Source: Prorocentrum cordatum (lineage: Eukaryota > Sar > Dinophyceae > Prorocentrales > Prorocentraceae). Taken from it: a DNA stretch of 64,000 nt. Position numbers and translations under genes: made by a program. Location of the stretch: positions 132,001 to 196,000 of the forward strand of contig CAUYUJ010017912.1 in NCBI GenBank assembly GCA_963575745.1, read 5' to 3'. A model generated the notes under the pieces. That model saw only the letters and a program-made list of their open reading frames with translations. It did no database searches and was not told the origin of the DNA. Shown in pieces: positions 42,162 through 59,270 of this stretch (its first letter is position 1; every line of letters starts with the position of its first letter).

Positions 42162-42412
42162 ATGTTGTCAGGTGGGGTGGGGGAGGGGGGGAGAGCGGCC
42201 GTATAAACGCAAACGCATGCCGAAAATTATCGGATGTTTTCGCGGATTCTTCATGCACGCTGAAGCGCCTTCGTTTCCAATGTGGGGTGCTACGTTGGCG
42301 GCCCGCGTAGGACGCGGCGCACGGTCGTTAAGGTCTTCTTGTCCGAGGCGGGGATTTATTCACATTTCGCCCCAGTATTCGCAGCATCCTTATGCATTCA
42401 AACACATGGGGC

Positions 42413-42417
42413 TGGAT
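42413..42417. repeat. Target-site duplication, left copy
   Basis: TGGAT directly left of the 5' LTR is repeated at 58735-58739, directly right of the 3' LTR. The match extends to CTGGATG because of the LTR end sequence, so the exact LTR boundary is ambiguous by one or two bases. Confidence 0.7.
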
Positions 42418-42701
42418 GACTTTAAACGGAGAAGGTTAAAGGCGAGGTATAAATCGAGCATGTACCGCTGCCGTGCCTGGCTCAAGCCGGGCCCGGCCAA
42501 ATATGTGATTGTGCCTCACCGAGGCGCACGACTTGTATCTGAGATCGGAAAATACCTTTTCCATTGACGATGCCCATCCTATCCTTTACTCCAGATCCCA
42601 TGCTTCGTCTTGCTCTCTTGCTCATGCGATATGAGCCAAAGCCTGGGATATGGGAACGCCTAAGGCGTAATATATACCTAAGCTTACCAGTTGTTTTCGA
42701 C
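42418..42701 (+). repeat. 5' LTR
   Basis: 284 bp, GACTTTAAACGG to GTTTTCGAC. Nearly identical to 58450-58734: T/C at 42637 and TTG versus TGCG near 42691. It does not show the usual TG...CA ends. It carries the promoter and the RNA start and end signals for the element. Confidence 0.92.
42448..42454 (+). promoter_or_regulatory. Possible TATA box in the LTR
   Basis: TATAAAT within GGCGAGGTATAAATCGAGC, 30 bp from the LTR start. Dinoflagellate genes usually lack a canonical TATA box, so an LTR promoter of classical type would be notable. The assignment is by motif only. Confidence 0.4.
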
Positions 42702-42702
42702 T

Positions 42703-42717
42703 TGGTAGCGGAGCTGG
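42703..42717 (+). other. Primer-binding site
   Basis: TGGTAGCGGAGCTGG begins one base after the 5' LTR. TGG pairs with the CCA end of a tRNA, and TGGTAGCRGAGC resembles sites primed by initiator methionine tRNA in copia elements. The exact tRNA is not provable here. Confidence 0.65.
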
Positions 42718-42919
42718 CTACACTCTCGTGTGGCTGGCTCTCGCTCTGATTCCTGTAATCCACGGCACAACTTGGTGGACTACTACTACGGTGGAATACC
42801 ATGTTGCGCCGGCTCTGCGAGGAGCGGAGCCAGTCCGCGATCGAGCTAGCGGGGCAACCCGCGAACTCGAGACGCTCTCTCCTACTTCACTGCGCTACTT
42901 CACTCCCGACTTCCACCAG

Positions 42920-45900
42920 ATGCCAATCGGCAACTCGATCGAGAACGTGGTCACCCTGCGGGGCTACCCGCAGCGGGGCCACCTGCATCCCGTGCCAGTC
43001 AGGCGCCTCACGGCTACTACGCCAGAGCCTGACAAACCACAGCCTAAACCAATCACCGAAGCCGAAATGCACATGCACTGGATTAAGATAACTATCTTCG
43101 GCATTCTGTGGGTAATAATGGGATGTGCTGTGGGATACATGCGGCAGGGGATGGACGACACGCGTACTACCGGCCCTTCGTGGGACCCTGCCGGTACTAC
43201 GCCTTTTCGCGAATACGTTCGCGAAGTACATGCATGGATAAACGTAACGAGCGGCAATATGACGCCACCTCAACAAGCTGCAGCACTACAACGAGGCCTT
43301 CAAGGTCTTGCTCGTCGTATCGCCATGCAGGTCCCCTCCCAGATCATCAACTATGGTGTAACTGTCAATGGACAGCCAACGGATGCAGTTACATATATAC
43401 TGTACCTACTGAGCACCAAATTTGAAAATCTGGAAGATGAGCGCCAGCTCAACTCTGGCACTGCCCTTATCGACTTTCGCGTCGAAAGGGGCGAGCGAAT
43501 CGACTCAGTGTTAGCTCGATTCGAGATGGCTCGTGACGAGGCTAACTCTGTTGGCTTTGTCATCCCCAACTTTCAGATCCTAACGCTGATCCTTTTCAGA
43601 GCGTTAGGCGTTGGCGCGTCACGAGCCCAACACCTGCTGGAGCCTTTTAATCATCAGATGCCCAGAACACAAGCAGACTATGACAGGCTGCTGACCAGGA
43701 TGAGGAACTACGGACATGTTGCCGAGCGCTCTCCTGGCAACATTGCGGGTATCTTCACAGGGCACCACTCACATGCAGGTGTCTACGCCACGACTGCGGG
43801 GTCACCCGCTGGTCCTGGCGAGCCAAGTCCCTGGGCTGACCCAGCCGATATGCCCAACGAGGCCACTGCCTTCTTAGGGCAGACCGGCCAGGCATCGGCA
43901 GAGGCAGCTGAGGCGAACGCCGGGTCGAACTACTCGCCAGGCGCCGCTTGCACTGCAAGCCCGCCCTCGGGCACAACCCTCTGGGGCCAAGCGGAGTCAT
44001 CCGCTCAAGGGTCTCAGCCACCCTCACCGTTTGAATCTGGCACTGACACAGATACCTCATCTGACGATGAGCACAATGGCATAGTCTCTGCTGGTAATGA
44101 CTATCCAGCGGATGACACTCACCTTTCTGAACAACAAAGAGCGGAAGCCGCTTTTATGGCTTATCGCAAATCAAAACGCCGTTGGAGGCGCTTTATGAAG
44201 AAACCAGTCAGAAAAGTGAGACGTGCAGTACGCCGACATTTCAAACGATATGGAAAGGGTCGTGGCAAAGGGGGTCGCAGACGCCGTATGCATGGTAGGG
44301 GTATTACTGCTTTCCTCACGTCCTTAACTGATATAGTCTTTGAGGAAGTTCTTATCGGAGGCAAAGGTCGGGGTCACAGGCGGACCTCCGGTAAGGGAAG
44401 AGGGCGGAGGGGCAACCCTAGGGACGCTTCTGGCAATACTATGAAGTGTCATACATGCGGTAGCACAGAGCACTTGCGCGATCAATGCCCGAAGGGGAAA
44501 GGAAAGGGATCCGTACATTTGGCTCAAAATTCTTTTATGGATGACATAGACTACATTGACTACGAGTTTTACGTCAATCCAGAAGCGGCTCCCGCTGCGG
44601 GCTCCTCCACGTACTACGTGATGGCCCGCTACGCTGAAGTGACCGTAGCCCTGGAAGACTACGCAGTGACCCTCTTCGACGAGTTCCACGGCTGGGACGA
44701 AGTCGACGAGGTCGCGTTCAATGCTTGGTTCGGTCTTCCAGCGGGGCCACCCGCCGACGACGAGATCTCCGAAGCTGAGACCGTCCCGGCGACCGAGGAA
44801 GAGCTCACCGCCGCGCTGGCACCGCAGGTGATTGGCACGCCGTTGCTGCCAGATCTTTCGCGAGCTGGCTCGGAGGCGGGAGACGCTGATGACGAAATGC
44901 GGGGCCATCCCGCGTATTCTGACTCCGAAGAGGCCGAAGAGGACTATAAGGACATGCTCCAAGAGCAGGTCGCAGAAGCAATCCGGCTCCTGAGTGCGCC
45001 AGCACATCAGCAGATAACCATGAACGACCTGCTGTCGCGCCCAGGGGCCGCACGGCTGCGTCCATACCTGGATTCGGACATGTCGGGACCTCAGATGCTG
45101 ACAGCACTCCAGGCTCTAGCGGGGTCACCCGCCGAAGTGACGCCAGCCGCAGCAGCGGGGCCACCCGCTTGGTCTATGGATGTATTTATGCAGGGCTGCG
45201 ACCAGATGGACCTCAACGACCTCACGATGGAGCAGTTAAACGACATCGGGTACTTCCGAAGCCCGTATCAACACGTATTCATGGTCCAGGACAGCTCAGA
45301 GGACTCGGAGGACATGCGCTACGCCAAGAGGGACAGACGACCATCGCCTCCCCGAGACTCAGAGCATGACGATCAAAGGCCAATGGAACGTGGTAGTGCG
45401 TCAGCGGGGCCAGCCCGCAGGAGGAGCCGTTCAGCTCCCAGACGCCCTACACATGATGCATCGGGCTACCCGTGCAGTACTGAGCACTCCGTTGGTGTAT
45501 CCGCTCAGTACGTGCCGGAGTGGTACATCAATTGGTACCCCGGCTACTCGATGGACGTGATCCGCCACTGGTATTCTAAGGAATACTGCACCAAAAGGGA
45601 CGAAACTGGCATGATAATACGTACCAAGGGTGGCAAGACCAAAACGCCAGAGGCTTGGGACAAAAGGGCTAAGAAACAGGAGATCATCAACGATCGCAAG
45701 ACATACAGGAAACAAGTATGTCAGTGCGAGCCCTTCAAAGGTCACATGCGCAGTTGTCCGATGGACCGCCCCTCCAGGAGTCCTCATCACGGTGAGACCC
45801 CGTGGAATTGGTCTCATGGAGATGACGCTGGCAACGTCCATGATCCTAACAAGGAGGTCCCTGGAGGAGGAAAGCGCATCACAGAAGCCGATCGCGTCCC

Positions 45901-48900
45901 TATGACCGAAGAGGTGGCCAACATCGTCAGGGAAAATTGGGTACAGCTTCCCAATGACCATCGCCTCAAGGAATGGAACCGCCGATTCCATAAAGTGGCG
46001 GGGTCACCCGCAGGATCCAGCAAAGAAGCGGGGTCACCCGCAGACGCGGCGCCAGCCGCTGGGTCCGCGGACGAAGATTGGATAGCTGTTGCATCTGCTG
46101 CTGGGTCCGCCGCCGGTACTGACCACACCGAACTGAATGAAGAATGGGCGGCGGAAGACGGCTCAGAGAATCCATTCCCTGATGGATGCGCCTGCTGGTG
46201 CTACAGCTCTTCGGCGCAGAAGTGGTTTTGCACGAGGGTAATTCACCGCCACGAAAATGGCAAGTACAAGCTGGCCATAAAAGGTACTGCCGACATCGAC
46301 CAGATGAGGCAGATCATCCATGATCATGGCCAGCCAGAAGGCCCTCCTAAAGACCCTCCTGGTCCACAACCGGGCAAGGGCAGCAGACCACCTCCAAGAC
46401 CTGAAGCCGACTCCTCGTCTTCACCGACTCCTGCGAAAAGGCACCCGTCCAAGAGCCCCGAAGGCACACAAGGGCGGGCGAAGGCCAGAGGGATCGCCAA
46501 GACGGACGACCCTGAGCTGGTAGATCCTCCCGGTCTGTCCGTGACGGAGAGGAGGAAGGCTTTTGCTGGACCATCGACCCCGATGCCACCGGCGACCCAA
46601 GGCGATGTCAAGGACGAAGTTCGCGACAAGCCTCAGGCAGCTTTCCGAGGTGACTGGACTCCAACTCTGCATCAGCCGCGCCTTGCACCACGACCAGGTT
46701 CGGCACGAATGAAAGCACAGCCGAAGCCCGAAGCTGGGATGAGGTCGGTGCGGGCAGAAGCAGCCGCCAAGGCTAAGGAGGACAAGGGCTCTGCGGGGCC
46801 ACCCGCTAAAGCGGCGCCAGCTGCAGCAGCGGGGACACCCGCAGAAGGCACTCTCTCAAGAGAAGAACGCTTCAAAGTCCTCAAAGAATTTGGCGACCGA
46901 CAGAAACTAGCCGATGATGCAGTGGCTGACCAAGGTCACCAGCACCCTGGCGCGGAGTCATCCGCTGGAGCTGCCTCGTCAGCCGCAGGCTCTGCTGGGC
47001 CACCCGTTAAAGCGCCGCCAGCTGCATCAGCGGGGCCACCCGCACGCTGGCAGCCAGTAATGTCTGTTCTTAGGAACATCCCTCTGGGAGCCATGGAATA
47101 TTGGCAAGGCATTGAAGGCAAAGGCCCGAAGCGCACCATAAACCCACGAGTCACTCGAGACGATACAGACCGATACGAGGTCATTGATTGCCCTGATCGT
47201 CGTAACTTCGAGTGCCGCAACGACTGGGAACGTGAACAACAAGCCGTGGGAAAGATGTTGCGAGACAGGCCGCCATTGCGCGTCGCGCAGCATAAGGCAG
47301 AGCTCATGAAGGTCATGGAAAGGTTCGGCATGGATCCGACTTTGCCGCGCGATGGGCAAATGACCAAGGTGTCAATATGGTTCTCTACAGCCCTACGCCA
47401 TAGTCCGTATTGGAAGGACGGATTCAGCCGACACTTCGAAAAGATTAGCACTTTCGATCCATACGATGGCTGGGTTGTTGTTGACGATCTGCTGACAAAC
47501 TGGACTGAAAATGATCAGTGGAAAGGCTATCGTGAAATGCACGAGGTGCTGATCAAGGGCAGGCCCCACACGTCATACGTGTATTGGGTGCTGCTAAACT
47601 GCTGTGAGATGATTGACCATCACGGCATGCAGAAGGGCAGGCTCCAGATGAAGTGCGTTGATGACAGCATGCTGCTGCCTCCCAGGTTTCGACCAACGGC
47701 ACGCAGGCCACAGTACTTCATCAGAGCCACGAACGGCCACAGCAGTCCAGGCATCCACTGTCCCGAGTCGCTTTATAAGCCGATCACAACATGGATGAAA
47801 GAACCAGACGACCCAGTATATTTCATCCACGGGACACAGTGGGAGTATGTCAAGGACATCCTTGCTAATGGCCTTTCATGCCTCGCACAGGACAACCCTA
47901 AAAGGAAGGGGGGGCGCCAATTTGTGCACGGCTGCCCCTACCTCCCGGGCGACCCGAGGATTCAATCGGGCATCCGTCCTGACTCGGAGGTGCTCATATT
48001 CTGCAGCATCAACAAGATGCTGTCCAGTGGCTTCTCCCTATGGAGGTCAGCAAATGACATCGTCATGACACGGGGCCACGACGGACGTATACCGCCCGAT
48101 CATATCCTCCAGATTGTGAGCATTGCGAAATATCGGGTCGGTGAAGCCTGGAGCAATCCGCTGGCTTATGACAAGTCGCGGAGGCGGGGCCAACCCGCGG
48201 ACAGGATTCGCACCGATGACTACCTGCCACTTAAATTATGTGACAGAACTCTGGGTGTAATGGAAGATCACGCCATGTACCTAAAGGGCTGGACTAAGAC
48301 GGACGGTCGCCCATTCAATTTGATCATGACCGAGCAAGATGTTGCTCCACGACCGTACGACACACAGACAGTCCTCATGATGAATGCCCAGGAAGACGAG
48401 GTCATGCCTGAAGCGGGGCCACCCGCAGGTGCGGGGACACCCGCGGTAGACACCTCGGACGGTTCATGGCAACAAGTGGTCACACCAGTAGCAACGGTAG
48501 CATCTCCTTGGAGGCCGGATCAGCAGACATGGGTCCAGGCCCTCAACAGCTACTTGACACCAGCCGACGTCTCTGGACTGACCGATCAGCTATATCGTGC
48601 TGACCCGTGGGCAGTGCATACAGGTATCCAAGACGCACAGCAGAGGAACCTGCGCACTCCTGCGGGGCCACCAGGCGTCCTAGGACCACAACCACAACGC
48701 CCTCCGCAGCAGGCTGGAGGTGCGAGGTTTGTCCCTATGGGCGGTTCAGATGGTGGCTCGCCGTTTCGGACTCCGCCGTCTGAAACGAGCGAGAACAGCT
48801 TGTGGCAAAGACTCCAGGCGATTCGCGGGAATCCGGCGCTCGCAGCAGCACTCCAGGCGACCACTCCCTTTGGCACTCCGAGGGGTAGTGAAGGAGGAGT

Positions 48901-51745
48901 GGCTGCGGGGACACCCGCCGAGCGAACGCCTGCGGAGCCACCCGCACATGCGGGGCCACCCGCTGACGGACAGCAAGGTTCAGACTACGAACGTCGGGCA
49001 GCCAACTTAAGAGCACAGGCTACTTTTCTGCAGCAACAAGCTGATAGAGTGCCCAGCCTGTTGCGGAACCGCAACATAGATGTTACGAATCATGGCGACT
49101 TTCGGCCTCTCTGGAGCTGGACTTCTGAAGATGCTCCAAATGCTGATCCCACGAATCCATATCGACAGGTGTTTATTCCAGGAATAGCATCACACCCAAT
49201 ATATGGATGGGACAATCATGGACCAGCAGAGGCACAGGCCATGGACGCGCCGATGTACCCGGAGTACTACGCGCAGATGAATAACACTCCTATGATTGCG
49301 GGGCCACCTGCGAACGAATACACTCGGAATCTTGCCAATGAGATGTTTCGTTTGCAGTTTACACGAGCGGTCGATGCGCAGTCTATGCCGCACTACGCCT
49401 ACATGCCCACGCCGACGGACCCCGAGACCGTAGTTCAGCCAGCTGGTCTCGCGGTGCCAGCCGCTATGGGCAGCATGCCAGACTACATCCGCGACGTGCA
49501 CAACACGCAGCAAGCGATACTGGCATCTAGGCAGCAGGCTCGGGACAACACCAGGCTGCGCCAACAACGCGCGATCCAGAGAAGGATTGAGCGTGAGACC
49601 CAAGCGGGGACACCCGCAGACGCGGGGCCACCCGCTGAACGGCCAGATAGACGGCCGCCACCGACGCCATATCGGGAGGGCGAAACCACTTTCGAGCGCC
49701 AAGCTCGGACTCGCCCAGACGTGCCTGCTCCAGTCATTTCAGACTACAACTTCACACAGTGCCCAATCTGTATGGACAACTACGAGATGGGCACTATAGT
49801 GTGGAGACTGGCGTGTGGGCACTTCTTTCACGATATATGCTGGGATCGTGTTGCACAGCAGCACGTCCGCAATCAGCGACCAGGTGCGCCGAACGAGGCC
49901 CCCTGCGCTGTATGTCGTGGGCCGGGCATAGTTATAGCACACTTCCCGTATGCTGGACAGCGCGACGCTGAATCGGAACAAGCGCGCCAGCAGGAAAGGT
50001 ACGTGGCAGATGCCCGGGAAATGCGTCGGCTACGTGAAGCAGTGGAGGCACTGGAGGCTCGAGCCGCACAATCGGCGGAGCCATCCGCACGTGCCCCAGC
50101 TGCACAGGCATACCCCTGGCCAGCGCCAGAGCAAGGCATCCAGATGCCAATCCTGCCTACGCTTCGAGCGCAGGAGCCCCCAGCTGCGGGGCCACCCGCT
50201 GAAGCGGCTCCCGCCGCCAAAGCGGGGCCACCCGCAAATGGGCCTCCAAATCCAGGTTTCCTGAGGGCAATGGAGGCCAACATCAGGCGGAGTGGCAGGA
50301 GCGGAGGCGGGACTCGAAGGCCAACTGGATCAACCAGGACCTCGCGTGTGGCAAGCCCGGTCAGCGCTAGGAGCCGGGCAAGCGCTGAGAGCGCGGAGGC
50401 AGCCCAGTTCCATACCACATTCATGATCGATACAGAGGGGCTGACCTATGCACGTGACGACACGGACACGCTGCCGCCAGGAGGTGAATGGATGTCCACA
50501 CTATCTGTGAATTATTGGGTTCTTGAACAGGAACCAATTACCGTGGAGGAGCGCCGCCAATATGAGCAGATGTGGTGCACCGAGTTAACCATGAGTCAAT
50601 GGGTGCATGAACAGCGCCTGTTGAAAGGTACACTCGGTTCGCAGATTACGTACCACACCAATGACCATGGGACAATGGCTCTGGCAGCGCGAAATGGGAC
50701 ATTCTTTCCTGACGAAGACGGTATGCCCTGCATCTCGTACATGCTAGACATTGGGTCCAATGTGAACATCATTGGATCCAATACGGCGCGAACCTTCCAG
50801 GAGATTATGGCCAGGTACAATCACAGACCTGCCATATGCACCCTGAGCAAGACCCTCTACATCAATGGTGTTGGTGAGGGCGCTGCGATATGTCGGAAGA
50901 TGGGCAACTTCAAGATCGGGGTACAATATGCCAATGAGGCAAGCCCCCGTATCGAGGAGTATGCCTCCAACATCGCAGAAGGCTCGGGTGCCAATCTCCC
51001 GGCCATCTGGGGCCTAGGAGCCATGGAAGCACGTGACACGATCATCGTGCTGAAGCCAGGCTACCAGAAGGTTATCTTCCCCAGCGGTGACTACACCCTG
51101 AAGCTGGGAAGAGGCGCCAAGGTCCTGAAGGCGAAGAAAACTCCCTCGGGACATCTCGCGATTCCCTGCGGTTTGTATGACGGGGCTAAAAGCCAGACGG
51201 TCACGAACACCTTCACAATCCGCAGCAGTCGAGATGGCTATACCGAGACGGAGAACGAAGAGGACCCCGTCAGTGCGGGGCCACCCGCCGGAGCAAGTGC
51301 GGGGCCACCCGCCGAAGCCACAGCGGGGCAACCCGCGACGGGACAGTCCATGACCGTCACGACCGATACGTACATTGTCGAGCCGTACCTCGACAAGCAG
51401 CTCCTGGAAGACACGACCCGTTTGATCGTGGACAGGACGCTGAACAGCTGGTGGGAGGGCCAACAGTGTCCCGAAGGGACCTGGCCACATATGAAGGATG
51501 CCCTGAAGTCTAAGATATTCTGGGCAGTCCAGGAGGCGGTGAATAAATGGACGCCTGAGAACCAAGCGGGGCCACCCGCGTCACCGCCACCACCACCAAG
51601 CCACACGGGCGGAGGTTCGTCGGACTCTGCGGGGCCAACCCGCGTGGAGATCGTGAGCGTAGCCACACCAGCGCCTCCTGCGGAGCCATCCGCTAACAGC
51701 ATGCCTCCGAGTCAGACGGCAACGTGGTCACACGACCGCCGCTGA
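42920..51745 (+). CDS. Copia Gag-protease polyprotein with embedded Tpt1 and RING domains
   Basis: First in-frame ATG at 42920 gives 2,941 residues; the frame is already open from 42671 with no ATG, only GTG at 42728. Residue numbers run from ATG 42920. A membrane-like segment at about 55-74 (ITIFGILWVIMGCAVGYM). Gag-like helical region about 95-275. Lys/Arg-rich tract about 414-460, then a CCHC zinc knuckle from Cys510 (CHTCGSTEHLRDQC), both for RNA binding. Acidic linkers. Tpt1/KptA-type domain about 1480-1735 with Arg1493-His1494, Arg1602 and Arg1709. RING-H2 finger 2281-2332 followed by a Glu/Arg coiled coil. Retropepsin-like protease with MLDIGSN (Asp2610; DIG replaces the usual D-S/T-G). 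Ends at UGA 51743 in a readthrough-like context, with the pol frame continuing in phase. Linkers are packed with AGxPA repeats from the mini-hairpins. Confidence 0.85.
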   Translation: MPIGNSIENVVTLRGYPQRGHLHPVPVRRLTATTPEPDKPQPKPITEAEMHMHWIKITIFGILWVIMGCAVGYMRQGMDDTRTTGPSWDPAGTTPFREYVREVHAWINVTSGNMTPPQQAAALQRGLQGLARRIAMQVPSQIINYGVTVNGQPTDAVTYILYLLSTKFENLEDERQLNSGTALIDFRVERGERIDSVLARFEMARDEANSVGFVIPNFQILTLILFRALGVGASRAQHLLEPFNHQMPRTQADYDRLLTRMRNYGHVAERSPGNIAGIFTGHHSHAGVYATTAGSPAGPGEPSPWADPADMPNEATAFLGQTGQASAEAAEANAGSNYSPGAACTASPPSGTTLWGQAESSAQGSQPPSPFESGTDTDTSSDDEHNGIVSAGNDYPADDTHLSEQQRAEAAFMAYRKSKRRWRRFMKKPVRKVRRAVRRHFKRYGKGRGKGGRRRRMHGRGITAFLTSLTDIVFEEVLIGGKGRGHRRTSGKGRGRRGNPRDASGNTMKCHTCGSTEHLRDQCPKGKGKGSVHLAQNSFMDDIDYIDYEFYVNPEAAPAAGSSTYYVMARYAEVTVALEDYAVTLFDEFHGWDEVDEVAFNAWFGLPAGPPADDEISEAETVPATEEELTAALAPQVIGTPLLPDLSRAGSEAGDADDEMRGHPAYSDSEEAEEDYKDMLQEQVAEAIRLLSAPAHQQITMNDLLSRPGAARLRPYLDSDMSGPQMLTALQALAGSPAEVTPAAAAGPPAWSMDVFMQGCDQMDLNDLTMEQLNDIGYFRSPYQHVFMVQDSSEDSEDMRYAKRDRRPSPPRDSEHDDQRPMERGSASAGPARRRSRSAPRRPTHDASGYPCSTEHSVGVSAQYVPEWYINWYPGYSMDVIRHWYSKEYCTKRDETGMIIRTKGGKTKTPEAWDKRAKKQEIINDRKTYRKQVCQCEPFKGHMRSCPMDRPSRSPHHGETPWNWSHGDDAGNVHDPNKEVPGGGKRITEADRVPMTEEVANIVRENWVQLPNDHRLKEWNRRFHKVAGSPAGSSKEAGSPADAAPAAGSADEDWIAVASAAGSAAGTDHTELNEEWAAEDGSENPFPDGCACWCYSSSAQKWFCTRVIHRHENGKYKLAIKGTADIDQMRQIIHDHGQPEGPPKDPPGPQPGKGSRPPPRPEADSSSSPTPAKRHPSKSPEGTQGRAKARGIAKTDDPELVDPPGLSVTERRKAFAGPSTPMPPATQGDVKDEVRDKPQAAFRGDWTPTLHQPRLAPRPGSARMKAQPKPEAGMRSVRAEAAAKAKEDKGSAGPPAKAAPAAAAGTPAEGTLSREERFKVLKEFGDRQKLADDAVADQGHQHPGAESSAGAASSAAGSAGPPVKAPPAASAGPPARWQPVMSVLRNIPLGAMEYWQGIEGKGPKRTINPRVTRDDTDRYEVIDCPDRRNFECRNDWEREQQAVGKMLRDRPPLRVAQHKAELMKVMERFGMDPTLPRDGQMTKVSIWFSTALRHSPYWKDGFSRHFEKISTFDPYDGWVVVDDLLTNWTENDQWKGYREMHEVLIKGRPHTSYVYWVLLNCCEMIDHHGMQKGRLQMKCVDDSMLLPPRFRPTARRPQYFIRATNGHSSPGIHCPESLYKPITTWMKEPDDPVYFIHGTQWEYVKDILANGLSCLAQDNPKRKGGRQFVHGCPYLPGDPRIQSGIRPDSEVLIFCSINKMLSSGFSLWRSANDIVMTRGHDGRIPPDHILQIVSIAKYRVGEAWSNPLAYDKSRRRGQPADRIRTDDYLPLKLCDRTLGVMEDHAMYLKGWTKTDGRPFNLIMTEQDVAPRPYDTQTVLMMNAQEDEVMPEAGPPAGAGTPAVDTSDGSWQQVVTPVATVASPWRPDQQTWVQALNSYLTPADVSGLTDQLYRADPWAVHTGIQDAQQRNLRTPAGPPGVLGPQPQRPPQQAGGARFVPMGGSDGGSPFRTPPSETSENSLWQRLQAIRGNPALAAALQATTPFGTPRGSEGGVAAGTPAERTPAEPPAHAGPPADGQQGSDYERRAANLRAQATFLQQQADRVPSLLRNRNIDVTNHGDFRPLWSWTSEDAPNADPTNPYRQVFIPGIASHPIYGWDNHGPAEAQAMDAPMYPEYYAQMNNTPMIAGPPANEYTRNLANEMFRLQFTRAVDAQSMPHYAYMPTPTDPETVVQPAGLAVPAAMGSMPDYIRDVHNTQQAILASRQQARDNTRLRQQRAIQRRIERETQAGTPADAGPPAERPDRRPPPTPYREGETTFERQARTRPDVPAPVISDYNFTQCPICMDNYEMGTIVWRLACGHFFHDICWDRVAQQHVRNQRPGAPNEAPCAVCRGPGIVIAHFPYAGQRDAESEQARQQERYVADAREMRRLREAVEALEARAAQSAEPSARAPAAQAYPWPAPEQGIQMPILPTLRAQEPPAAGPPAEAAPAAKAGPPANGPPNPGFLRAMEANIRRSGRSGGGTRRPTGSTRTSRVASPVSARSRASAESAEAAQFHTTFMIDTEGLTYARDDTDTLPPGGEWMSTLSVNYWVLEQEPITVEERRQYEQMWCTELTMSQWVHEQRLLKGTLGSQITYHTNDHGTMALAARNGTFFPDEDGMPCISYMLDIGSNVNIIGSNTARTFQEIMARYNHRPAICTLSKTLYINGVGEGAAICRKMGNFKIGVQYANEASPRIEEYASNIAEGSGANLPAIWGLGAMEARDTIIVLKPGYQKVIFPSGDYTLKLGRGAKVLKAKKTPSGHLAIPCGLYDGAKSQTVTNTFTIRSSRDGYTETENEEDPVSAGPPAGASAGPPAEATAGQPATGQSMTVTTDTYIVEPYLDKQLLEDTTRLIVDRTLNSWWEGQQCPEGTWPHMKDALKSKIFWAVQEAVNKWTPENQAGPPASPPPPPSHTGGGSSDSAGPTRVEIVSVATPAPPAEPSANSMPPSQTATWSHDRR
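47357..48125 (+). other. Region encoding the RNA 2'-phosphotransferase (Tpt1/KptA-type) domain
   Basis: Known Tpt1/KptA enzymes remove a 2'-phosphate from RNA using NAD+, through 2'-ADP-ribosylated RNA; in eukaryotes they finish tRNA splicing. Visible signatures in order: STALRHSPY (family: LRH; Arg and His catalytic), WVVVDDLL (family: GFVxVxxLL), FIRATNGHS (family: IRAxQGHS), FIHGTQWEYVKDILANGLS (family: HGTxxxxWxxIxxxGLS), then PYLPGDPRIQSGIRPDSEV and LWRSANDIVMTRG (family: FFRSANGVILT). All four Arg/His/Arg/Arg catalytic positions are present. An insertion of about 50-60 residues lies between the WVVVDDLL and IRATNGHS blocks. No mini-hairpin interrupts the domain. It sits between Gag/zinc knuckle and RING/protease in one frame with them. 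Confidence 0.88.
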
Positions 51746-51781
51746 CGGGGGCAGGCGGGCGCGCCGGCGGCGCTCGCTTGC
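51743..51781 (+). promoter_or_regulatory. Probable UGA readthrough signal between gag and pol
   Basis: The stop is UGA followed by CGG (UGACGG), the strong readthrough context used with a 3' RNA structure by several plant RNA viruses and related to the UGA-C context of alphaviruses. Five bases downstream, 51751-51762 (GCAGGCGGGCGC) pairs with 51770-51781 (GCGCTCGCTTGC) as a 12-bp stem with two G-U pairs and a 7-nt loop. The 201 bases between the UGA and ATG 51947 contain no stop in the same frame and read as protein. The simplest view is a Gag-Pol polyprotein made by occasional decoding of UGA. Confidence 0.65.
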
Positions 51782-51946
51782 GAAGAGAAGCCGAATACCG
51801 GCCTCCTCGCTACATACGTTGGCCGCGCTGAGGCCCGAGAGGAAAAATATCATTCAAAATGTCTTGTCATCGAAGATATTCGCACAGCTTGCGCTGAACT
51901 CCGAACCCGTGGATATATATGCGACCGGATTACCCATAATGAGGTA

Positions 51947-54900
51947 ATGACTTCAACTGGAACACAGTATTTGGGAAATTTGTTGGCAGGAGACTACAAT
52001 ATGTTGTGGGTGGCCACACCCTCTGATTGGTACGTTCGTACTCCAGGAAAGAGGGCGGGACCACATTATCAACGTATACAAAATCTCCTGATCAAAGCGC
52101 GTGCTCTGAGAATGCAGATTGTTATCCTGGGGCCACCGGGGTATTTCTGGAAACAGGGTCCGATCAAAGATGTTATCGAAGATTTGAAGCTAAGCATTAT
52201 ACGAATGAGACTCTGTCATTTCGGTATCAAGTTTGACCGATCCAGTAAATATCCCAGTGGTGCTTATATGCAAGTTGCTACATCTTGTCCTCATATACCG
52301 ATAAACTTATGGAAATGTACTTGTGGCTCACACAAGGAGCATGATTTGGATTGGTATGGCCAAGATCAGCAACGTGCCGAGTTTCGGCATAAAACTTTGG
52401 CTATCATTATTGCACGTTTCCTTGATCAACTCGATAAAGCCAACATGATCAGGAATGAGCGGAGTGCGGTACACCTCAGTGCGTGTACTCGCGTTGACAA
52501 AAAGGTAAGACACTACGTCCAATGTCCACAAAAGGGCCCTCAATGGGACCATGTTGTTCGTAGAGTCACGACCGACCTGGACACGAACAAGATCGTTCAA
52601 GATATCAGAATCCAGGAACAGCCAACTGGGTACAATTATGTAGCCCCATTACCTGATGGGGTTACAAACATTAGTACTCGGCTATACTGGGAGCCTCCGG
52701 CTCCAGTTCTTCATGGCGACGGTGAGTCGCGAAGGCCACGCCCAAAGCGTGTGACGATCGTCGATGACGATCGATCTCCTCCCCCTTCGATTGAGCGTTG
52801 CCAAACGCGACCCACCAACAACTTTCCTGAAATTCCGCCATTTCCTGACTTAACAGCGGATTCCTCCGCAGCGGATCTCTCCGCGGAAACTGCGTTGCCC
52901 ACTGATGCCAGGATAAAACAGAAAGAAAAGCAGAAAGCTGACAAAGAGGCCGGCATCAAACCGAAGAAAATCCCGAAGAAAGTGGAAGACGGTAACGACG
53001 ACTGTGGAGAGGACCTCAAAGGGCTTGACTGCTCCACATATTTCAACGACGTTCCTCTTGACGACTCGGACTCGGACAGCGAATCAGAGGACATCTTCAT
53101 GATGTTACCGGCGGGGCAACCCGCTGACTCACATGCTGATGTCTTCTCGATGGTCCAGTCGTTATGCTACGGCAGAAACAATCAAGTGGACATGCTTGAA
53201 TTATGTGGGGGCAAGGGTGGTATATCCATATTAGCCTTCAAGAGGGGACTCTCGTCAGGCGGGAACCTTGACAAGATATCTATGGTTGACCTTGGAAACT
53301 CGGAAGTACAAAGAGCAGTCCTCCACTACCTCAAGACTTGCTTTGTCAAGATCACGATTCTGCAGCCAAGCTGCAGAACTACTGGACTTCCTTCCTATTT
53401 CAATGCACAGGTCAATCATGATACGTGGCTTAAACACCACAAAGAGGACCTGCCTCATATCACGTTCTGTGGAACAGTCGCTCTATTACAAGACGACCTA
53501 AGACGTTTCTTTCTCAGGGAACAACCAATGGGCACGTGGGTGGATGAGATCCAGCCATGGAAGGAACTGGCACAACGCAAGGTCACTTGCCAAACGATTA
53601 TTGATCAGTGCACGACTGGTCTCAAAGATTCATTTGGACAATACATCCGCAAGCCAACACAGATGATGGCAAACAAAGAAGAGTTGTTGGCACCTTTCAG
53701 AGGCAAGCGTTGTCCAGGTAATCATGTGCACGCCAATGCTTGCAACAAAGAACTAGCAAGGGCGGCACAGTATACCTACAGAATGCAGTCACTGATCGTT
53801 GATGCGGTGCAAATCGCCAAAGATCTGTTTGCTTACGGTCGCGATCCATTCGCGAATCGCGAACGCAGCTATGCGTTCGTAACAAACAGTGCTGGCTACG
53901 ACTTGGACGACCCAACAATCCGGAGACACCCAAACGGAGAAATCTGGCGACCACCACCTGGCGGTCTTGGGTGCCATGGCTGTGTGGACAACAACTACAA
54001 GCAATCACCAAAGCACAGCAGGGATCCGAAGATGTGTCGGTGGTATGATGTTGAACCATACTACTGGGACTGTCCAAGCTGTAAGAAGGAATATCAGAAG
54101 AGTAATCCTCACCACACCAAGATATCTGGCCAATGCAGATTCGCCGAAAAATGGAAGCTGCCAGATAACTTTGGTCAGCCGCGCCCGGCGGGGCAAGCCG
54201 CTCCTGCGGCGCCAGCCGCGGAAGCGGCTCCAGCCGCAGAAGCGGCGCCAGCCGCAAAAGCGGCGCCGGCCGCGAGAGCGCGCATACGCGCGCCTAGGCC
54301 GCCACGGCCTGGTGAGGGCGATCCAACCGCAGGCGCCAGCAGCCATGACATCACCAGAGCCGAAGGGGCTAATGGTGGCAACACTGGCGCTGGCAGCTCT
54401 GACGATCACCGTAGACTGCCACAAGTTGCAGCAAGGCGCGGACGCATGGAGGGAGGAGATCCTCCACCACCGCCGCAGCCTCAAGCAGAGCCGAGGCCAA
54501 GGCCAAGGCTCCCTGATTGGACTCGCTTCGACGTTCAGCTCAGCCTCCAAAACCTGCGCAGCTTTGACCCAGCTGTAGTGCAGCGAGAACTCCGCAAACT
54601 CCACTTGAGATGGTTTCATGCCAAGGAGCCAAAAATGCGGATGATTCTAACCAAGGTTGGTCTGGGTGAAACCCGTTTGAGTCTGATCAAAGGCATTTGC
54701 GACTCGTGTAGAGAATGTCGAGCCTGGGACAAACCAGGCAACACGGTGATGCCTTCTGTGTCACTGCCAGGACGTTTCAACGAGGAAGTCGAATGTGATC
54801 TTTTCTTTTACAAACAGGAACATATTGTTTTTCACATCATCGACCGTTGTATTCGCTGGGCAGCTGGCACAGAGATTCCTGATAAGACCATGCATACTGT

Positions 54901-57900
54901 TCTCGATGCCTATCACACAACTTGGATGCAACATGGCCCTGCTAAAATCTTATACTCCGATGGGGAAGGAGCACTGAATAACGATACAGCAAAGGCCATC
55001 CTTAAGGCTAAGGGAACAGAGCTTCGTATCCGAGCGCGTGGCCAACACGCCACGACTATCGAAGCTAGGAACGGCATCCTGCGACACCTCATACACGTGA
55101 TGGGAGAAGAATTGAATAGATTAAATATTCCTCTGAATTTCACTCGTCTTTTACATGAAGCCTTGTTTGCCAGCAACGCATTTACCTTCTACAATGAAGT
55201 GTCTCCGTACAATGCGCTGTATGGCAGACAACCAGCTATGCTTCCCGATTTCCCTGTCTTGGATCATGATCAGTCCGCTGAATCATCAGATCACTCAAGG
55301 GAGGAAACAATCAGGAGGGTCAGTCTGGAGGCAATCACGCAGGCCACTGCGGTTGCCAAGACGAACAGGGCTCTCCGTACGAAGACTACTGCTACGGGTG
55401 AATTTCACTACAAAGAGGGAGATCTCGTGGACTATCATCGCCCGACCACCACGAAAGACGACTGGGGTGAATGGAGTGGTCCATACCCGGTCATCCGCAA
55501 CGAACCTGACCGAGGCCAGGTCATCGTGAAGGTCGGTAGTCGCGAGGTGCGAGTACAGTATCCTGACACACGACACACGCTGTACATCGAAGCACTTATG
55601 GTCCGCGAGATAGGATCGGACAATACGGCCCTTCGGACAGTATTGGCCTTTATTGCCGGTCTGCCAGCGGGGAAACCCGCCATGACTTTCGGATATCTAC
55701 CAGCGAAACAGGGTCGGCTGCAGATGACTGCTGCGAGCCGACTTTCGCCTAAGGTGCACTTGGCTCTTCAGTACCTCATACGCAACTACTTTCGTATTGA
55801 AAACGTTGTTGCTGTACGACTTGCCAAGAGCCTGACGAAGTTGCCTGCTGCACCCTATGCAGACAGCTGTACACTAGTGCACTATGATAATGATGTGACC
55901 CCTGGTTTTCATTACTATGAAGCTGATGGCACTGCCTTGAACATCTACGACATCACAGGATCTACACACTCACGCATCATCCAGTGTCTTAAATCCAGGA
56001 AGCCGCCTGCTGGATTTGACCGAGACCTCACTAAGTTTGAGGAACTCGCTGATGGTCCACCACCAAGCGAGTCACCTCCAGCAGCTGCTCCTGAGCAGCC
56101 TCCTGCGGAGAACGATGGTCGGCTCCCGACCATCATAGAGGAAACAGAAGAAGATCTGGATGCTTTTGTCTTGAAGTCGTGGTATGCTGAACTGATGGAT
56201 GACAGAACACTCCTTGAAGCTGACACAGAAGAAGTCATGCATACAGTTCCCACATACATGACAGACACACAGTGTGTGTTAGTCTCTACGACCTGTGAAG
56301 ATGTGCAAGGCCACTTGCCGGAGCGGGGTCACCCGCCAGGATACGACATGGACACTTCTTACTACGTTCCTTTATGCTCCACGGATCCGGATAGCAAATA
56401 TGATCTGGACTCCGATGAGCACGGGAAGTACATCGAGCTCTGCTTCACAGCAGACATGTCCAAAGTCGTCCTGTCCGAGCAGCAACACCGATTGTTGGAT
56501 GACAGCAGCGTCACAACTATGCGAGTATACGTTAGTGCTGCCCCCAAACGTGCCGCGGTCGTCAAGGAAGACGATCTACTCACGAAGGCCGACATCCAAG
56601 CAAATCCGGTCAAAGTTTCCAAAGCCCTTTACACAGAATTGAAGACTTGGCTTGACAATAAATGCTTTCAGATGACTGACTTGAGCAAAGCGTCTAATAT
56701 CATGACTTCACGCTACGTATACAAATGGAAGTTTGTCAAGAACGAAAAGGGCGAAATGGAAAGGACGATCAGGTTGCGCTTGGTACTCCGTGGCTTCATG
56801 GACCTTGAAGCCTTTGATGTCGAAACCTTCTCTGGCACGGCAAGGAGGTCAAGCCAGAGACTGCTCGCAAGTTCTGCTGCATGCAACAAAGCTTGGATCA
56901 TCGCTTCCCTGGACATCAACATGGCTTTCTTGAAGGGACTGACCTATAGCGAGCTCGCCGCGGCAACGGGCGAGAAAGAGCGTGTGGTGTGCTTCACACT
57001 ACCTCCTGGGTCAGCAGCTGTCCTTCGCACACTGCCAGGCTTTGAGTCATATGACGAATCAAAGCATTGTCTTCGGTGTCTGAAGCCGGGGACGGGCACG
57101 AAGGATGCTCCCAGGGCATTCTCGCTGAAGCTCAGGTCCATCACTAGGAGCTTTGGGCTACAGCCTACTTCATACGACGAAGAGTTCGAGATGAGCTCAA
57201 ACCTCTTGACAGCCAAGCACGTTGATGACATCAATATGACTGGGAAGGAAGAGGCTATTGACAAGTATGTCAAGTGTGTTGAAGATACGTTTGGGAAGTG
57301 CAAACTGAACAAGCACACATACACAAACTGTGCCGTTCGGTATAACAAGACCGATGATGGGAGCGTCACTCTTGATCAGGACGAATACATCAAGCAGCTT
57401 CGTCCTATCACACATCCAGAACTCACAGGAGCTGATCCTGAGAGCAAAGCGACAAAGACGATTTCTGATATGTTCGTCAGTCTCCGTGGCGCTCTAGCCT
57501 ATGCGCTGATCACGCAGGTATGGCTGATGGTCTATGTTGTCTCACTACAACGTATCCAGGAACCGACAAACATCCAGGTACGACGACTAAACGCGGTTAC
57601 CAGGAAACTACAGGCAGGTCCGAAGAAGATCGTGTATCAAGCTATGACCCCAACAGGAGAAGTCGACCTGCATAGCGATTCTGGCTATCGCCGTCTCAAT
57701 GGAGATGAAGACGACGAAGTCAAAGGCTATGGTATCCGCGGGGCTAACCTGCTGAGGCGTGGCCACACGCAAGCGGGGAAACCCGTCGTGCACCTGGTGG
57801 ACGCATACTGCAAGTCTCATCGACTGCAGGTGCGTTCGAGCTACTCTGCGGAAACACTGGCAGCAGCCCACAACTTGGAAGACTGCTACCCGACCATTGT

Positions 57901-58345
57901 AACGCTCCACGAGCTACACTCGGGACCATTGACCCCCACACAGTTAAAGAACATATTGGAAATGGGTGGTCTATGTATCAAAGTCACTCTGACTATTGAT
58001 GCCGAGTCTGTCTTCAAGTCTTTGTCTAGCAAAGATCTGAAGAAGCCCACAGAATGTACTCTGCTTGGGCACATTAGCTGGATCCGCCAGATGATGGAGC
58101 GCGGAATCGTTGAAAGCGTTCAATGGTGTGACACGCGGGATATGACTGCCGATGGTCATACCAAAGGTAGTATTGACCGCGCGTTGCTCCTACAAGTAAT
58201 GGCCGGCCAGCAATCCTTCAAGCACGAGCTGAAGAAACATGCACCGTATAGGGCGGGCAGGTCGTCTCAGGACGGCCCTGCCTCCCGAGCTAGCGGGGAA
58301 ACCCGCGGGCAGGTGCGCTCTAGTAGCGAGGAAACTCGCCGGTAG
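51947..58345 (+). CDS. Copia Pol polyprotein: methyltransferase-like modules, integrase, RT, RNase H
   Basis: 2,132 residues from ATG 51947; the same frame runs upstream without a stop to UGA 51743, so Pol is probably a readthrough extension of Gag. Residues from ATG 51947. N-terminal module 9-175 with VILGPPGYFW, CHFGIKFD and LWKCTCG...H. A Rossmann-like module from 415 with ELCGGKGG (418-425), PSC (Cys476) and REQPMGTW (Glu525), resembling C5-methyltransferase motifs I, IV and VI in degenerate form. Cys-rich zinc region about 675-745. Integrase: HHCC finger (His886, His891, Cys918, Cys921) and D951, D1005, E1039 (DD-33-E). RT: Asp1656 in ASLDINMAF and Asp1760-Asp1761 in KHVDDINM (usual Tyr is His). 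RNase H: Asp1911, Glu1969, Asp2018, Asp2062. All key residues are present, so it could be active. Confidence 0.92.
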   Translation: MTSTGTQYLGNLLAGDYNMLWVATPSDWYVRTPGKRAGPHYQRIQNLLIKARALRMQIVILGPPGYFWKQGPIKDVIEDLKLSIIRMRLCHFGIKFDRSSKYPSGAYMQVATSCPHIPINLWKCTCGSHKEHDLDWYGQDQQRAEFRHKTLAIIIARFLDQLDKANMIRNERSAVHLSACTRVDKKVRHYVQCPQKGPQWDHVVRRVTTDLDTNKIVQDIRIQEQPTGYNYVAPLPDGVTNISTRLYWEPPAPVLHGDGESRRPRPKRVTIVDDDRSPPPSIERCQTRPTNNFPEIPPFPDLTADSSAADLSAETALPTDARIKQKEKQKADKEAGIKPKKIPKKVEDGNDDCGEDLKGLDCSTYFNDVPLDDSDSDSESEDIFMMLPAGQPADSHADVFSMVQSLCYGRNNQVDMLELCGGKGGISILAFKRGLSSGGNLDKISMVDLGNSEVQRAVLHYLKTCFVKITILQPSCRTTGLPSYFNAQVNHDTWLKHHKEDLPHITFCGTVALLQDDLRRFFLREQPMGTWVDEIQPWKELAQRKVTCQTIIDQCTTGLKDSFGQYIRKPTQMMANKEELLAPFRGKRCPGNHVHANACNKELARAAQYTYRMQSLIVDAVQIAKDLFAYGRDPFANRERSYAFVTNSAGYDLDDPTIRRHPNGEIWRPPPGGLGCHGCVDNNYKQSPKHSRDPKMCRWYDVEPYYWDCPSCKKEYQKSNPHHTKISGQCRFAEKWKLPDNFGQPRPAGQAAPAAPAAEAAPAAEAAPAAKAAPAARARIRAPRPPRPGEGDPTAGASSHDITRAEGANGGNTGAGSSDDHRRLPQVAARRGRMEGGDPPPPPQPQAEPRPRPRLPDWTRFDVQLSLQNLRSFDPAVVQRELRKLHLRWFHAKEPKMRMILTKVGLGETRLSLIKGICDSCRECRAWDKPGNTVMPSVSLPGRFNEEVECDLFFYKQEHIVFHIIDRCIRWAAGTEIPDKTMHTVLDAYHTTWMQHGPAKILYSDGEGALNNDTAKAILKAKGTELRIRARGQHATTIEARNGILRHLIHVMGEELNRLNIPLNFTRLLHEALFASNAFTFYNEVSPYNALYGRQPAMLPDFPVLDHDQSAESSDHSREETIRRVSLEAITQATAVAKTNRALRTKTTATGEFHYKEGDLVDYHRPTTTKDDWGEWSGPYPVIRNEPDRGQVIVKVGSREVRVQYPDTRHTLYIEALMVREIGSDNTALRTVLAFIAGLPAGKPAMTFGYLPAKQGRLQMTAASRLSPKVHLALQYLIRNYFRIENVVAVRLAKSLTKLPAAPYADSCTLVHYDNDVTPGFHYYEADGTALNIYDITGSTHSRIIQCLKSRKPPAGFDRDLTKFEELADGPPPSESPPAAAPEQPPAENDGRLPTIIEETEEDLDAFVLKSWYAELMDDRTLLEADTEEVMHTVPTYMTDTQCVLVSTTCEDVQGHLPERGHPPGYDMDTSYYVPLCSTDPDSKYDLDSDEHGKYIELCFTADMSKVVLSEQQHRLLDDSSVTTMRVYVSAAPKRAAVVKEDDLLTKADIQANPVKVSKALYTELKTWLDNKCFQMTDLSKASNIMTSRYVYKWKFVKNEKGEMERTIRLRLVLRGFMDLEAFDVETFSGTARRSSQRLLASSAACNKAWIIASLDINMAFLKGLTYSELAAATGEKERVVCFTLPPGSAAVLRTLPGFESYDESKHCLRCLKPGTGTKDAPRAFSLKLRSITRSFGLQPTSYDEEFEMSSNLLTAKHVDDINMTGKEEAIDKYVKCVEDTFGKCKLNKHTYTNCAVRYNKTDDGSVTLDQDEYIKQLRPITHPELTGADPESKATKTISDMFVSLRGALAYALITQVWLMVYVVSLQRIQEPTNIQVRRLNAVTRKLQAGPKKIVYQAMTPTGEVDLHSDSGYRRLNGDEDDEVKGYGIRGANLLRRGHTQAGKPVVHLVDAYCKSHRLQVRSSYSAETLAAAHNLEDCYPTIVTLHELHSGPLTPTQLKNILEMGGLCIKVTLTIDAESVFKSLSSKDLKKPTECTLLGHISWIRQMMERGIVESVQWCDTRDMTADGHTKGSIDRALLLQVMAGQQSFKHELKKHAPYRAGRSSQDGPASRASGETRGQVRSSSEETRR

Positions 58346-58449
58346 CGAGGCTACTCGCGCGCCCTTGCCTTGTAGGCAGCCGCTGCTGCTTAGCACTGTT
58401 TTTTCCGCATAATGTAGAAGTGCGGTGCCTGCTCGTCTCCTCCCCCTCC

Positions 58450-58734
58450 GACTTTAAACGGAGAAGGTTAAAGGCGAGGTATAAATCGAGCATGTACCGC
58501 TGCCGTGCCTGGCTCAAGCCGGGCCCGGCCAAATATGTGATTGTGCCTCACCGAGGCGCACGACTTGTATCTGAGATCGGAAAATACCTTTTCCATTGAC
58601 GATGCCCATCCTATCCTTTACTCCAGATCCCATGCTTCGTCTTGCTCTCCTGCTCATGCGATATGAGCCAAAGCCTGGGATATGGGAACGCCTAAGGCGT
58701 AATATATACCTAAGCTTACCAGTGCGTTTTCGAC
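58450..58734 (+). repeat. 3' LTR
   Basis: 285 bp, nearly identical to 42418-42701. It is preceded by a pyrimidine run CTCGTCTCCTCCCCCTCC (58430-58449) rather than the purine tract normally used to prime plus-strand synthesis. Confidence 0.92.
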
Positions 58735-58739
58735 TGGAT
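58735..58739. repeat. Target-site duplication, right copy
   Basis: TGGAT, matching 42413-42417. Confidence 0.7.
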
Positions 58740-59270
58740 GGGCGTCTGCTTGCGAATTTGTCTAGGGGGCAGGGATGCAGGTCCCGGCTTCGTGGTGAGA
58801 TTTTTGAAATTTGCAGATTTAGATTTTCACAGATGGGGGCACGTTGCCCGACATGATGTCTGCTCGAAAGTCAGCGCGTATTTGCGCAATTGATTTTCAA
58901 GAGTGGTCGCGTTGGTTATGACAGCGCCAATGTGCTCATGTTGGCAGTGGTCGAGACAGCGCAACTCCCTACTTTGCGCGCTTGGATGGATGATGGAGGA
59001 GGATCGCGCGAGGATGTTGTGGGAGGCGGCCGCATAATAATCATGTTCTGTAGAAGCAGCGACCGTCGCTTTCTCGCCGCCATAAATTTCCCATCCACGC
59101 GATGGTTGCGACTATAACACGCGCGCGCCCAGCGCCTCCAGCGGCCCGGGGACTTCCCAGGCCCGCGATGCGACGAGCATCTCGATGCAGGAGTGCCTCA
59201 TTCCCACAGATCCATTTGCACTGAAATTTCTTGGTCGCGCGATGACATGAAAATGTTGCCATGACAAGCT
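58740..59270. other. Unassigned
   Basis: No recognised gene or repeat; flank of the copia insertion. Confidence 0.4.

Follow-up and report, generated by a model that had tools for sequence, protein, structure and literature searches.

Within a 64-kb window of the Prorocentrum cordatum genome (contig CAUYUJ010017912.1, positions 132,001 to 196,000), a complete copia-type long terminal repeat (LTR) retrotransposon of 16.3 kb, spanning 42419-58735 of the window, carries 44 perfect copies of a mini-hairpin with a 5-bp stem and a GNNA or GNNAN loop. The nucleotide sequence of these units, not the peptide that they encode, is what selection keeps, and the units very probably act as a signal in the sense RNA that is selected both for structure and for loop. 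A sequence-only reading of this DNA had described the hairpins and taken them for either a micro-palindrome spreading within coding sequence or a set of RNA motifs serving packaging, dimerisation, or protection; the observation is confirmed here and the interpretation partly supported.

The unit was searched for by its 5′ half only (GCG-NN-G-NN-A), with nothing required of the 3′ arm. An exact complement of the arm follows 44 of the 70 half-sites in the element, 38 times after a 4-nt loop and 6 times after a 5-nt loop. The hairpins lie at the positions first noted; with about a dozen imperfect copies besides the perfect ones, the earlier count of about 49 is a fair one. On neither strand of the 47.7 kb of flanking sequence within the window, on which specificity for the element rests, is any half-site followed by its complement (0 of 83 and 0 of 79; 0/162 in total). 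Hairpins with a GCGNN stem and GNNA loop number 38 on the sense strand and 3 on the antisense strand of the element, versus 0 and 0 in the other 47.7 kb, in agreement with the first impression that none occur elsewhere in the window. When 3′ arms were redealt among the 70 half-sites, a mean of 17.95 were complementary (maximum 28 in 5000), compared to 44 observed. Among half-sites with an arm other than GCGGG, 13 of 33 are complementary versus 2.09 on redealing (maximum 7 in 5000), and the stems therefore covary within the element.

The arms of the 44 units are GCGGG (31), GCGGA (5), GCGGC (3), GCGTG (2), GCGAG (2), and GCGTT (1), which recovers all four stem versions described before and adds two more, GCGTG and GCGTT. 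Loops are GCCA (19), GTCA (7), GACA (4), GCAA (3), GAAA (3), and GCTA (2), together with six GCCAN; the earlier description of the loops as GNNA holds for 38 of the 44, with GNRA in the minority, and gives way to 5-nt GNNAN loops in the other six. Of the 44 units, 41 have a stem of exactly five pairs, extensions being rarer than chance (p 0.002), and seven units folded alone gave predicted energies of −7.0 to −9.3 kcal/mol. Dropping the GCG requirement adds seven perfect sense hairpins with GNNA loops (GCCA 4, GTCA, GCTA, and GGAA), one of which straddles two units of the array at 54188; with any stem allowed, the antisense strand of the element holds five GNNA-loop hairpins. A second stem family with the same loop type is seen at 53577 (GCAAG-GTCA-CTTGC) and 56305 (GCAAG-GCCA-CTTGC). 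An over-tolerant unit list (125 inside and 447 outside the element) was set aside as a count and used just to illustrate imperfect units and those with 5-nt loops. Across 42400-58760, Rfam returned 0 matches at the gathering score.

The peptide AGxPA alone dictates, through its codons, four of the five pairs of the stem. Both open reading frames (ORFs) were assessed with 300 protein-preserving codon shuffles, a control that had been named beforehand as one that might undo the observation. It came out the other way: the ORFs contain 37 hairpins with a GCGNN stem and GNNA loop against a shuffle mean of 0.30 (maximum 2 of 300), 6 of the 5-nt-loop form against 0.08 (maximum 2), and 44 with any stem and a GNNA loop against 2.09 (maximum 7). 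In in-phase units the codons are nearly fixed (GCG in 36/41, GGG in 24/25, and CCC in 23/25), and codon choice is free where the third base falls outside the unit (GCT 12, GCG 11, GCA 11, and GCC 7). Of 36 loops, 33 end in A, versus 11.6 expected. An AGxPA peptide repeat as the cause is rejected by the shuffles, the pattern of codon fixation, and the excess of loop A, as the sequence-only reading had argued from units lying in all three codon phases (33, 3, and 8 of the 44, hence 11 outside the main phase). Together, the shuffles and the covariation of the arms demonstrate that structure is kept beyond coding. Forty-one of the 44 units lie in open frames and are read as protein; those at 42824 and 42849 precede the first ATG, and the one at 58345, as first noted, overlaps the ORF2 stop and runs past it.

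The claim that units avoid the domain cores holds for the four Pfam match spans tested, where 0 of 44 unit starts fall versus 4.5 expected, and fails for a weaker unit at 55036-55050, which sits in a conserved integrase-like motif. There, the window encodes Arg at a position occupied by Pro in the R-A-P-x-Q-H-A of the nine relatives shown, and this Pro/Arg codon change creates the GCGTG hairpin.

Relatives of the element were represented by 22 metagenomic Pol sequences (P0004-P0025), available as proteins only. For these, the residues on either side of G-[N/D], whose codons GGN-RAC would give a GNRA loop closed by G-C, were assessed for being codon-reverse-complementary, with conserved columns removed. 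At variable G-[N/D] sites, 33 of 80 are complementary versus 16.5 expected, and 0 of 3000 permutations reach 33. Before conserved columns were removed, G[ST] (z 5.2) stood out as well as G[ND] (z 4.8); after removal only G[ND] did (G-S z 1.8, G-T z 1.1), and the early G[ST] signal is tentatively put down to conserved Pol motifs. Complementary sites also tend to share their flanking pair within an element: 42 of 134 pairs of sites do so versus 17.7 expected (maximum 38 in 5000), based on the 68 of 84 complementary sites retained after conserved columns were removed. This complementarity test superseded counts of [HRYSC][GR][ND]-type peptides, which exceed shuffles in some relatives only, and repeated-word counts, which were informative in few. 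Among 12 matches of a further protein search, no units were seen in P0030 and P0031, which were read, or in six scanned for repeated words. One distant relative, P0026 (25% identity), repeats SSELTSLQ/SSELSSLQ in its linkers, with SEPSGLQ once; worked by hand, its L to P and S to G changes could compensate each other in one putative stem.

One orthologous place, site A, lies in Pol between the MMPE..T and ELCF motifs and reads X-G-[N/D]-Z in 16 of 22 relatives; the window has unit 56323 there, read as R-G-H-P. With one site taken where two exist (P0006, P0013, and P0021) and pairs read by eye from the alignments, 12 of 17 sequences are complementary versus 4.4 expected (3 of 20000 permutations reach 12), in seven stem types (L/E, R/T, T/G, H/V, P/R, R/S, and R/P). 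At 57757, the window reads R-G-H-T (GCGTG/CACGC) and P0017 reads R-G-N-A.

The same alignments bear on how the units arose. P0004, the nearest relative at 59% identity, aligns with the window without gaps at 52716, 55667, 57757, and 57773; no insertion since the split of the two therefore made those four units, and at none of the four is there a clean insertion facing an empty site. Insertion as a general origin is thereby rejected for the comparable sites. Added sequence is seen at 56323, where the window has six more residues, and at 54188-54273, an 18-nt tandem expansion; other unit pairs also lie 18 nt apart. These data fit a mixed origin of the units, some copies coming from duplication and others from substitution.

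The units spread over 42824-58358 as multiple stem-loops with a shared loop, the arrangement of dispersed packaging signals. In excerpts of PMC6281560, PMC5431903, and PMC7612645, the packaging signals of hepatitis B virus (HBV) and a number of RNA viruses are described as numerous stem-loops scattered along the RNA with a loop motif in common, and the authors of PMC6281560 suggest that repurposed Gag-like proteins assemble in a similar way. Those signals, in the same excerpts, are likewise short stem-loops across genomic or pregenomic RNA, including coding regions; their coat-protein binding has been measured and their sequences vary around a short motif, whereas the present units are known from sequence alone, belong to an LTR retrotransposon, and are near-identical 14-mers with a stem type tied to lineage. 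Because dispersed packaging signals are the best-known system working alike, we propose recognition by the element's own Gag for packaging and condensation of its 16-kb RNA, a role to which we give about even chances. In such a mechanism, the genomic RNA of the retrotransposon would display 5-bp stems with G-N-N-A loops kept by selection; the Gag or nucleocapsid, through a CCHC knuckle in ORF1, would bind the multicopy hairpins; and this binding would pick out, condense, and package the very long element RNA. Units would be placed where the protein tolerates them, with stem type tied to lineage, and might perhaps distinguish the element's RNA from that of sister elements. A self-recognition code, in which a lineage-specific stem on a common GNRA/GNNA loop evolves in concert at orthologous places with the element's reading protein, is a more tentative possibility. 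We infer that the DNA of relatives truly forms hairpins, that RNA rather than single-stranded complementary DNA (cDNA) is the working form, and that a protein, presumably Gag, binds the units for packaging.

Several observations weigh against a sense-RNA signal of this kind. The hairpins of relatives are deduced from peptides, not DNA, and their DNA was not found in viral contigs, genome contigs, or plasmids (the last searched by protein). Their signal concerns GNRA loops, whereas those of the window are GNNA and mostly not GNRA; it is strong for G-D (z 4.6) and weak for G-N alone (z 2.1), and in neither of the remaining codon phases is there a complementarity signal. Site A is missing in 6 of 22 relatives, and counting its 12 distinct pairs once each leaves 7 of 12 complementary versus 3.1 (270 of 20000); given this shrinkage, common descent may account for some of the excess. 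Since P0004 combines five stem types in a single element, a strict stem code does not apply generally; the P0007/P0008/P0015 group has few complementary sites.

Other explanations account for parts of these data. A selfish micro-palindrome that inserts copies into coding sequence, like Rickettsia palindromic elements or mitochondrial GC clusters, would suit the identical arm in 31 of 44 units, the tandem array and pairs 18 nt apart, and the six additional residues at 56323. We consider it unlikely, as length is unchanged relative to P0004 at four sites, orientation is 38:3 where a mobile palindrome would be expected both ways, the surrounding 47.7 kb contains 0 units, and at an orthologous site the stems of relatives differ in sequence yet are complementary. 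The spreading palindrome offered by the sequence-only reading thus fails as a general mechanism and survives as partial copying, at the 54188 array and at 56323; its suggestion of RNA motifs is upheld as to structure by the sense bias, loop identity, compensatory stems, and complementary flanks in relatives. Comparably unlikely are hairpins that slow ribosomes between domains and so aid folding or processing of the polyprotein. The absence of units from the Pfam spans and the sense orientation agree with such a role, for which any codon phase would suffice, but two units precede the first ATG, one extends past the stop, a fixed loop identity would be unnecessary, and the stems are only 5 bp with the energies given above.

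Slightly less likely again, a nuclease or repair enzyme may read the hairpins as sites where RNA is protected, cut, or repaired, and the element's own Tpt1/KptA would then strip 2′-phosphates from resealed breaks; the presence of that domain in ORF1 speaks for this, as does the activity of Tpt1, which takes off the 2′-phosphate left by fungal-type tRNA ligase (PMC6333775, in excerpt). More doubtful still is a role of the hairpins in single-stranded cDNA during reverse transcription. The strand bias suits plus-strand DNA as well as RNA, and DNA hairpins with GNA or GNNA loops are unusually stable; on the other hand, plus-strand DNA is single-stranded only briefly, and such a role gives no reason for dispersal across the whole element. 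We regard as least likely a low-complexity Ala/Gly/Pro linker repeat that multiplied recently at the DNA level and whose hairpin is functionless. Although AGxPA fixes four of five pairs and 33 of 44 units share one phase, this explanation is opposed by the codon shuffles (0.30 versus 37), the covarying arms (13/33 versus 2.09), the units in other phases, and the complementary flanks in relatives, of which 19 of 22 lack AGxPA.

Palindromes within genes are familiar from other systems. Rickettsia palindromic elements are many similar short palindromes that spread by insertion. Volvox organelle palindromes, as excerpted from PMC2670323, are also numerous, similar, and short, lie in or between genes, and spread by insertion; unlike either, several sites here lack an insertion and the orientation is fixed. 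The coding palindromes of Nematomorpha mitochondria (PMC6649704, in excerpt) are likewise inverted repeats within functional protein-coding sequence, but there the repeats are long and perfect, reaching 284 bp, and conserved protein is encoded by their arms, whereas the retrotransposon has one short multicopy unit with a conserved loop. The byp elements of Magnusiomyces mitochondria are, according to the excerpted text of PMC5009743, also many short blocks within coding sequence; they interrupt reading and are skipped by ribosomes, in contrast to the translated units described here. Among the matches listed from the open-licence PMC literature, none concerned a repeated hairpin inside retrotransposon coding sequence.

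Features of the element are collected in Table 1. The LTRs are near-identical and GGATG flanks both of them (42414-42418 upstream and 58736-58740 downstream), as in a short target-site duplication, which together indicate a recent insertion. Directly adjoining the 5′ LTR, TGGTAGCGGAGCTGG resembles a primer-binding site. ORF1 comprises 3005 codons counted from its open start, and its CCHC knuckle scores below the Pfam cutoff. Within the same Gag polyprotein are a Tpt1/KptA RNA 2′-phosphotransferase domain at 47465-48076 (Pfam 3.4e-15; PDB 7yw3 2e-13) and a RING finger at 49757-49918 (Pfam). ORF2 matches the copia-type reverse transcriptase RVT_2 (PF07727, E 8.4e-11); the Pfam search left the integrase unmatched, and an integrase-like stretch before RVT_2 was recognized by eye only. 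ORF1 closes with TGA-CGG; immediately downstream, without a frame change, the Pol frame is open (51743-51812), with homology to relatives beginning about 35 codons past the stop. UGA-CGG is a readthrough context, and readthrough of this stop may link gag to pol; a stem-loop 3′ of the ORF1 stop was not unusual (z −1.3). Three P. cordatum gene models match 7-11% of one ORF1 piece at 95-98% identity. Two P. cordatum gene models, P0001 and P0003, join the same ORF1 pieces (45500-51200) and omit the hairpin-rich stretches between, which may be a gene-prediction artefact or splicing.

Table 1. Hairpins and other features of the retrotransposon, in window positions
Feature	Position	Strand	Remarks
5′ LTR, 284 nt	42419..42702	+	1 mismatch vs 3′ LTR over first 272 positions
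TGGTAGCGGAGCTGG	42703..42717	+	adjoins 5′ LTR directly
ORF1, Gag polyprotein with CCHC, Tpt1/KptA, RING	42728..51745	+	first ATG 42920, stop TGA 51743-51745
GCGGA, loop GCCAG	42824..42838	+	upstream of first ATG
GCGGG, loop GCAA	42849..42862	+	upstream of first ATG
GCGGG, loop GCTA	42958..42971	+	
GCGGG, loop GTCA	43796..43809	+	
GCGGA, loop GTCA	43991..44004	+	
GCGGG, loop GCCA	44741..44754	+	
GCGGG, loop GCCAT	44899..44913	+	
GCGGG, loop GTCA	45119..45132	+	
GCGGG, loop GCCA	45155..45168	+	
GCGGG, loop GCCAG	45404..45418	+	
GCGGG, loop GTCA	45998..46011	+	
GCGGG, loop GTCA	46028..46041	+	
GCGGC, loop GCCA	46046..46059	+	
GCGGG, loop GCCA	46793..46806	+	
GCGGG, loop GACA	46829..46842	+	
GCGGA, loop GTCA	46952..46965	+	
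GCGGG, loop GCCA	47030..47043	+	
GCGGG, loop GCCAA	48184..48198	+	
GCGGG, loop GCCA	48413..48426	+	
GCGGG, loop GACA	48431..48444	+	
GCGGG, loop GACA	48905..48918	+	
GCGGG, loop GCCA	48950..48963	+	
GCGGG, loop GACA	49604..49617	+	
GCGGG, loop GCCA	49622..49635	+	
GCGGA, loop GCCA	50075..50088	+	
GCGGG, loop GCCA	50186..50199	+	
GCGGG, loop GCCA	50222..50235	+	
GCGGG, loop GCCA	51275..51288	+	
GCGGG, loop GCCA	51299..51312	+	
GCGGG, loop GCAA	51323..51336	+	
GCGGG, loop GCCA	51566..51579	+	
GCGGG, loop GCCAA	51629..51643	+	
GCGGA, loop GCCA	51680..51693	+	
ORF2, Pol with RVT_2	51947..58345	+	listed from first ATG; frame open back to 51746
GCGAC, loop GGTGA	52716..52730	+	outside the 44; P0004 has LGDE at site
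GCGTT, loop GCCA	52795..52808	+	
GCGGG, loop GCAA	53111..53124	+	
Array of five units, 18-nt spacing	54188..54273	+	54206 and 54242 perfect, GCCA loops, counted in the 44; 54188, 54224, 54260 variants
GCGTG, loop GCCAA	55036..55050	+	within conserved motif; may be incidental
GCGGG, loop GAAA	55667..55680	+	AGKPA peptide also in P0004; length unchanged
GCGGG, loop GTCA	56323..56336	+	orthologous site A; GCAAG-GCCA-CTTGC just upstream
GCGTG, loop GCCA	57757..57770	+	P0017 has RGNA; length unchanged
GCGGG, loop GAAA	57773..57786	+	outer pair G-T, outside the 44; length unchanged
GCGGG, loop GAAA	58293..58306	+	
GCGAG, loop GAAA	58326..58339	+	
GCGAG, loop GCTA	58345..58358	+	first base is last base of ORF2 stop
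3′ LTR, 285 nt	58451..58735	+	near-identical to 5′ LTR

Packaging signals of retroelements are usually thought to be compact and near the 5′ end. If the proposed function is correct, multisite RNA-capsid assembly would reach beyond RNA viruses to LTR retrotransposons, and hairpin/Gag pairs would form a natural series for direct tests of specificity. The AGPPA-type repeats look like RNA structure read as peptide, and an RNA signal can accordingly shape long protein linkers. Should the self-recognition code also hold, sister elements in one nucleus would each package their own RNA by means of it, and the family would provide a concertedly evolving multicopy RNA signal, nothing alike having appeared for retroelements among the matches listed.

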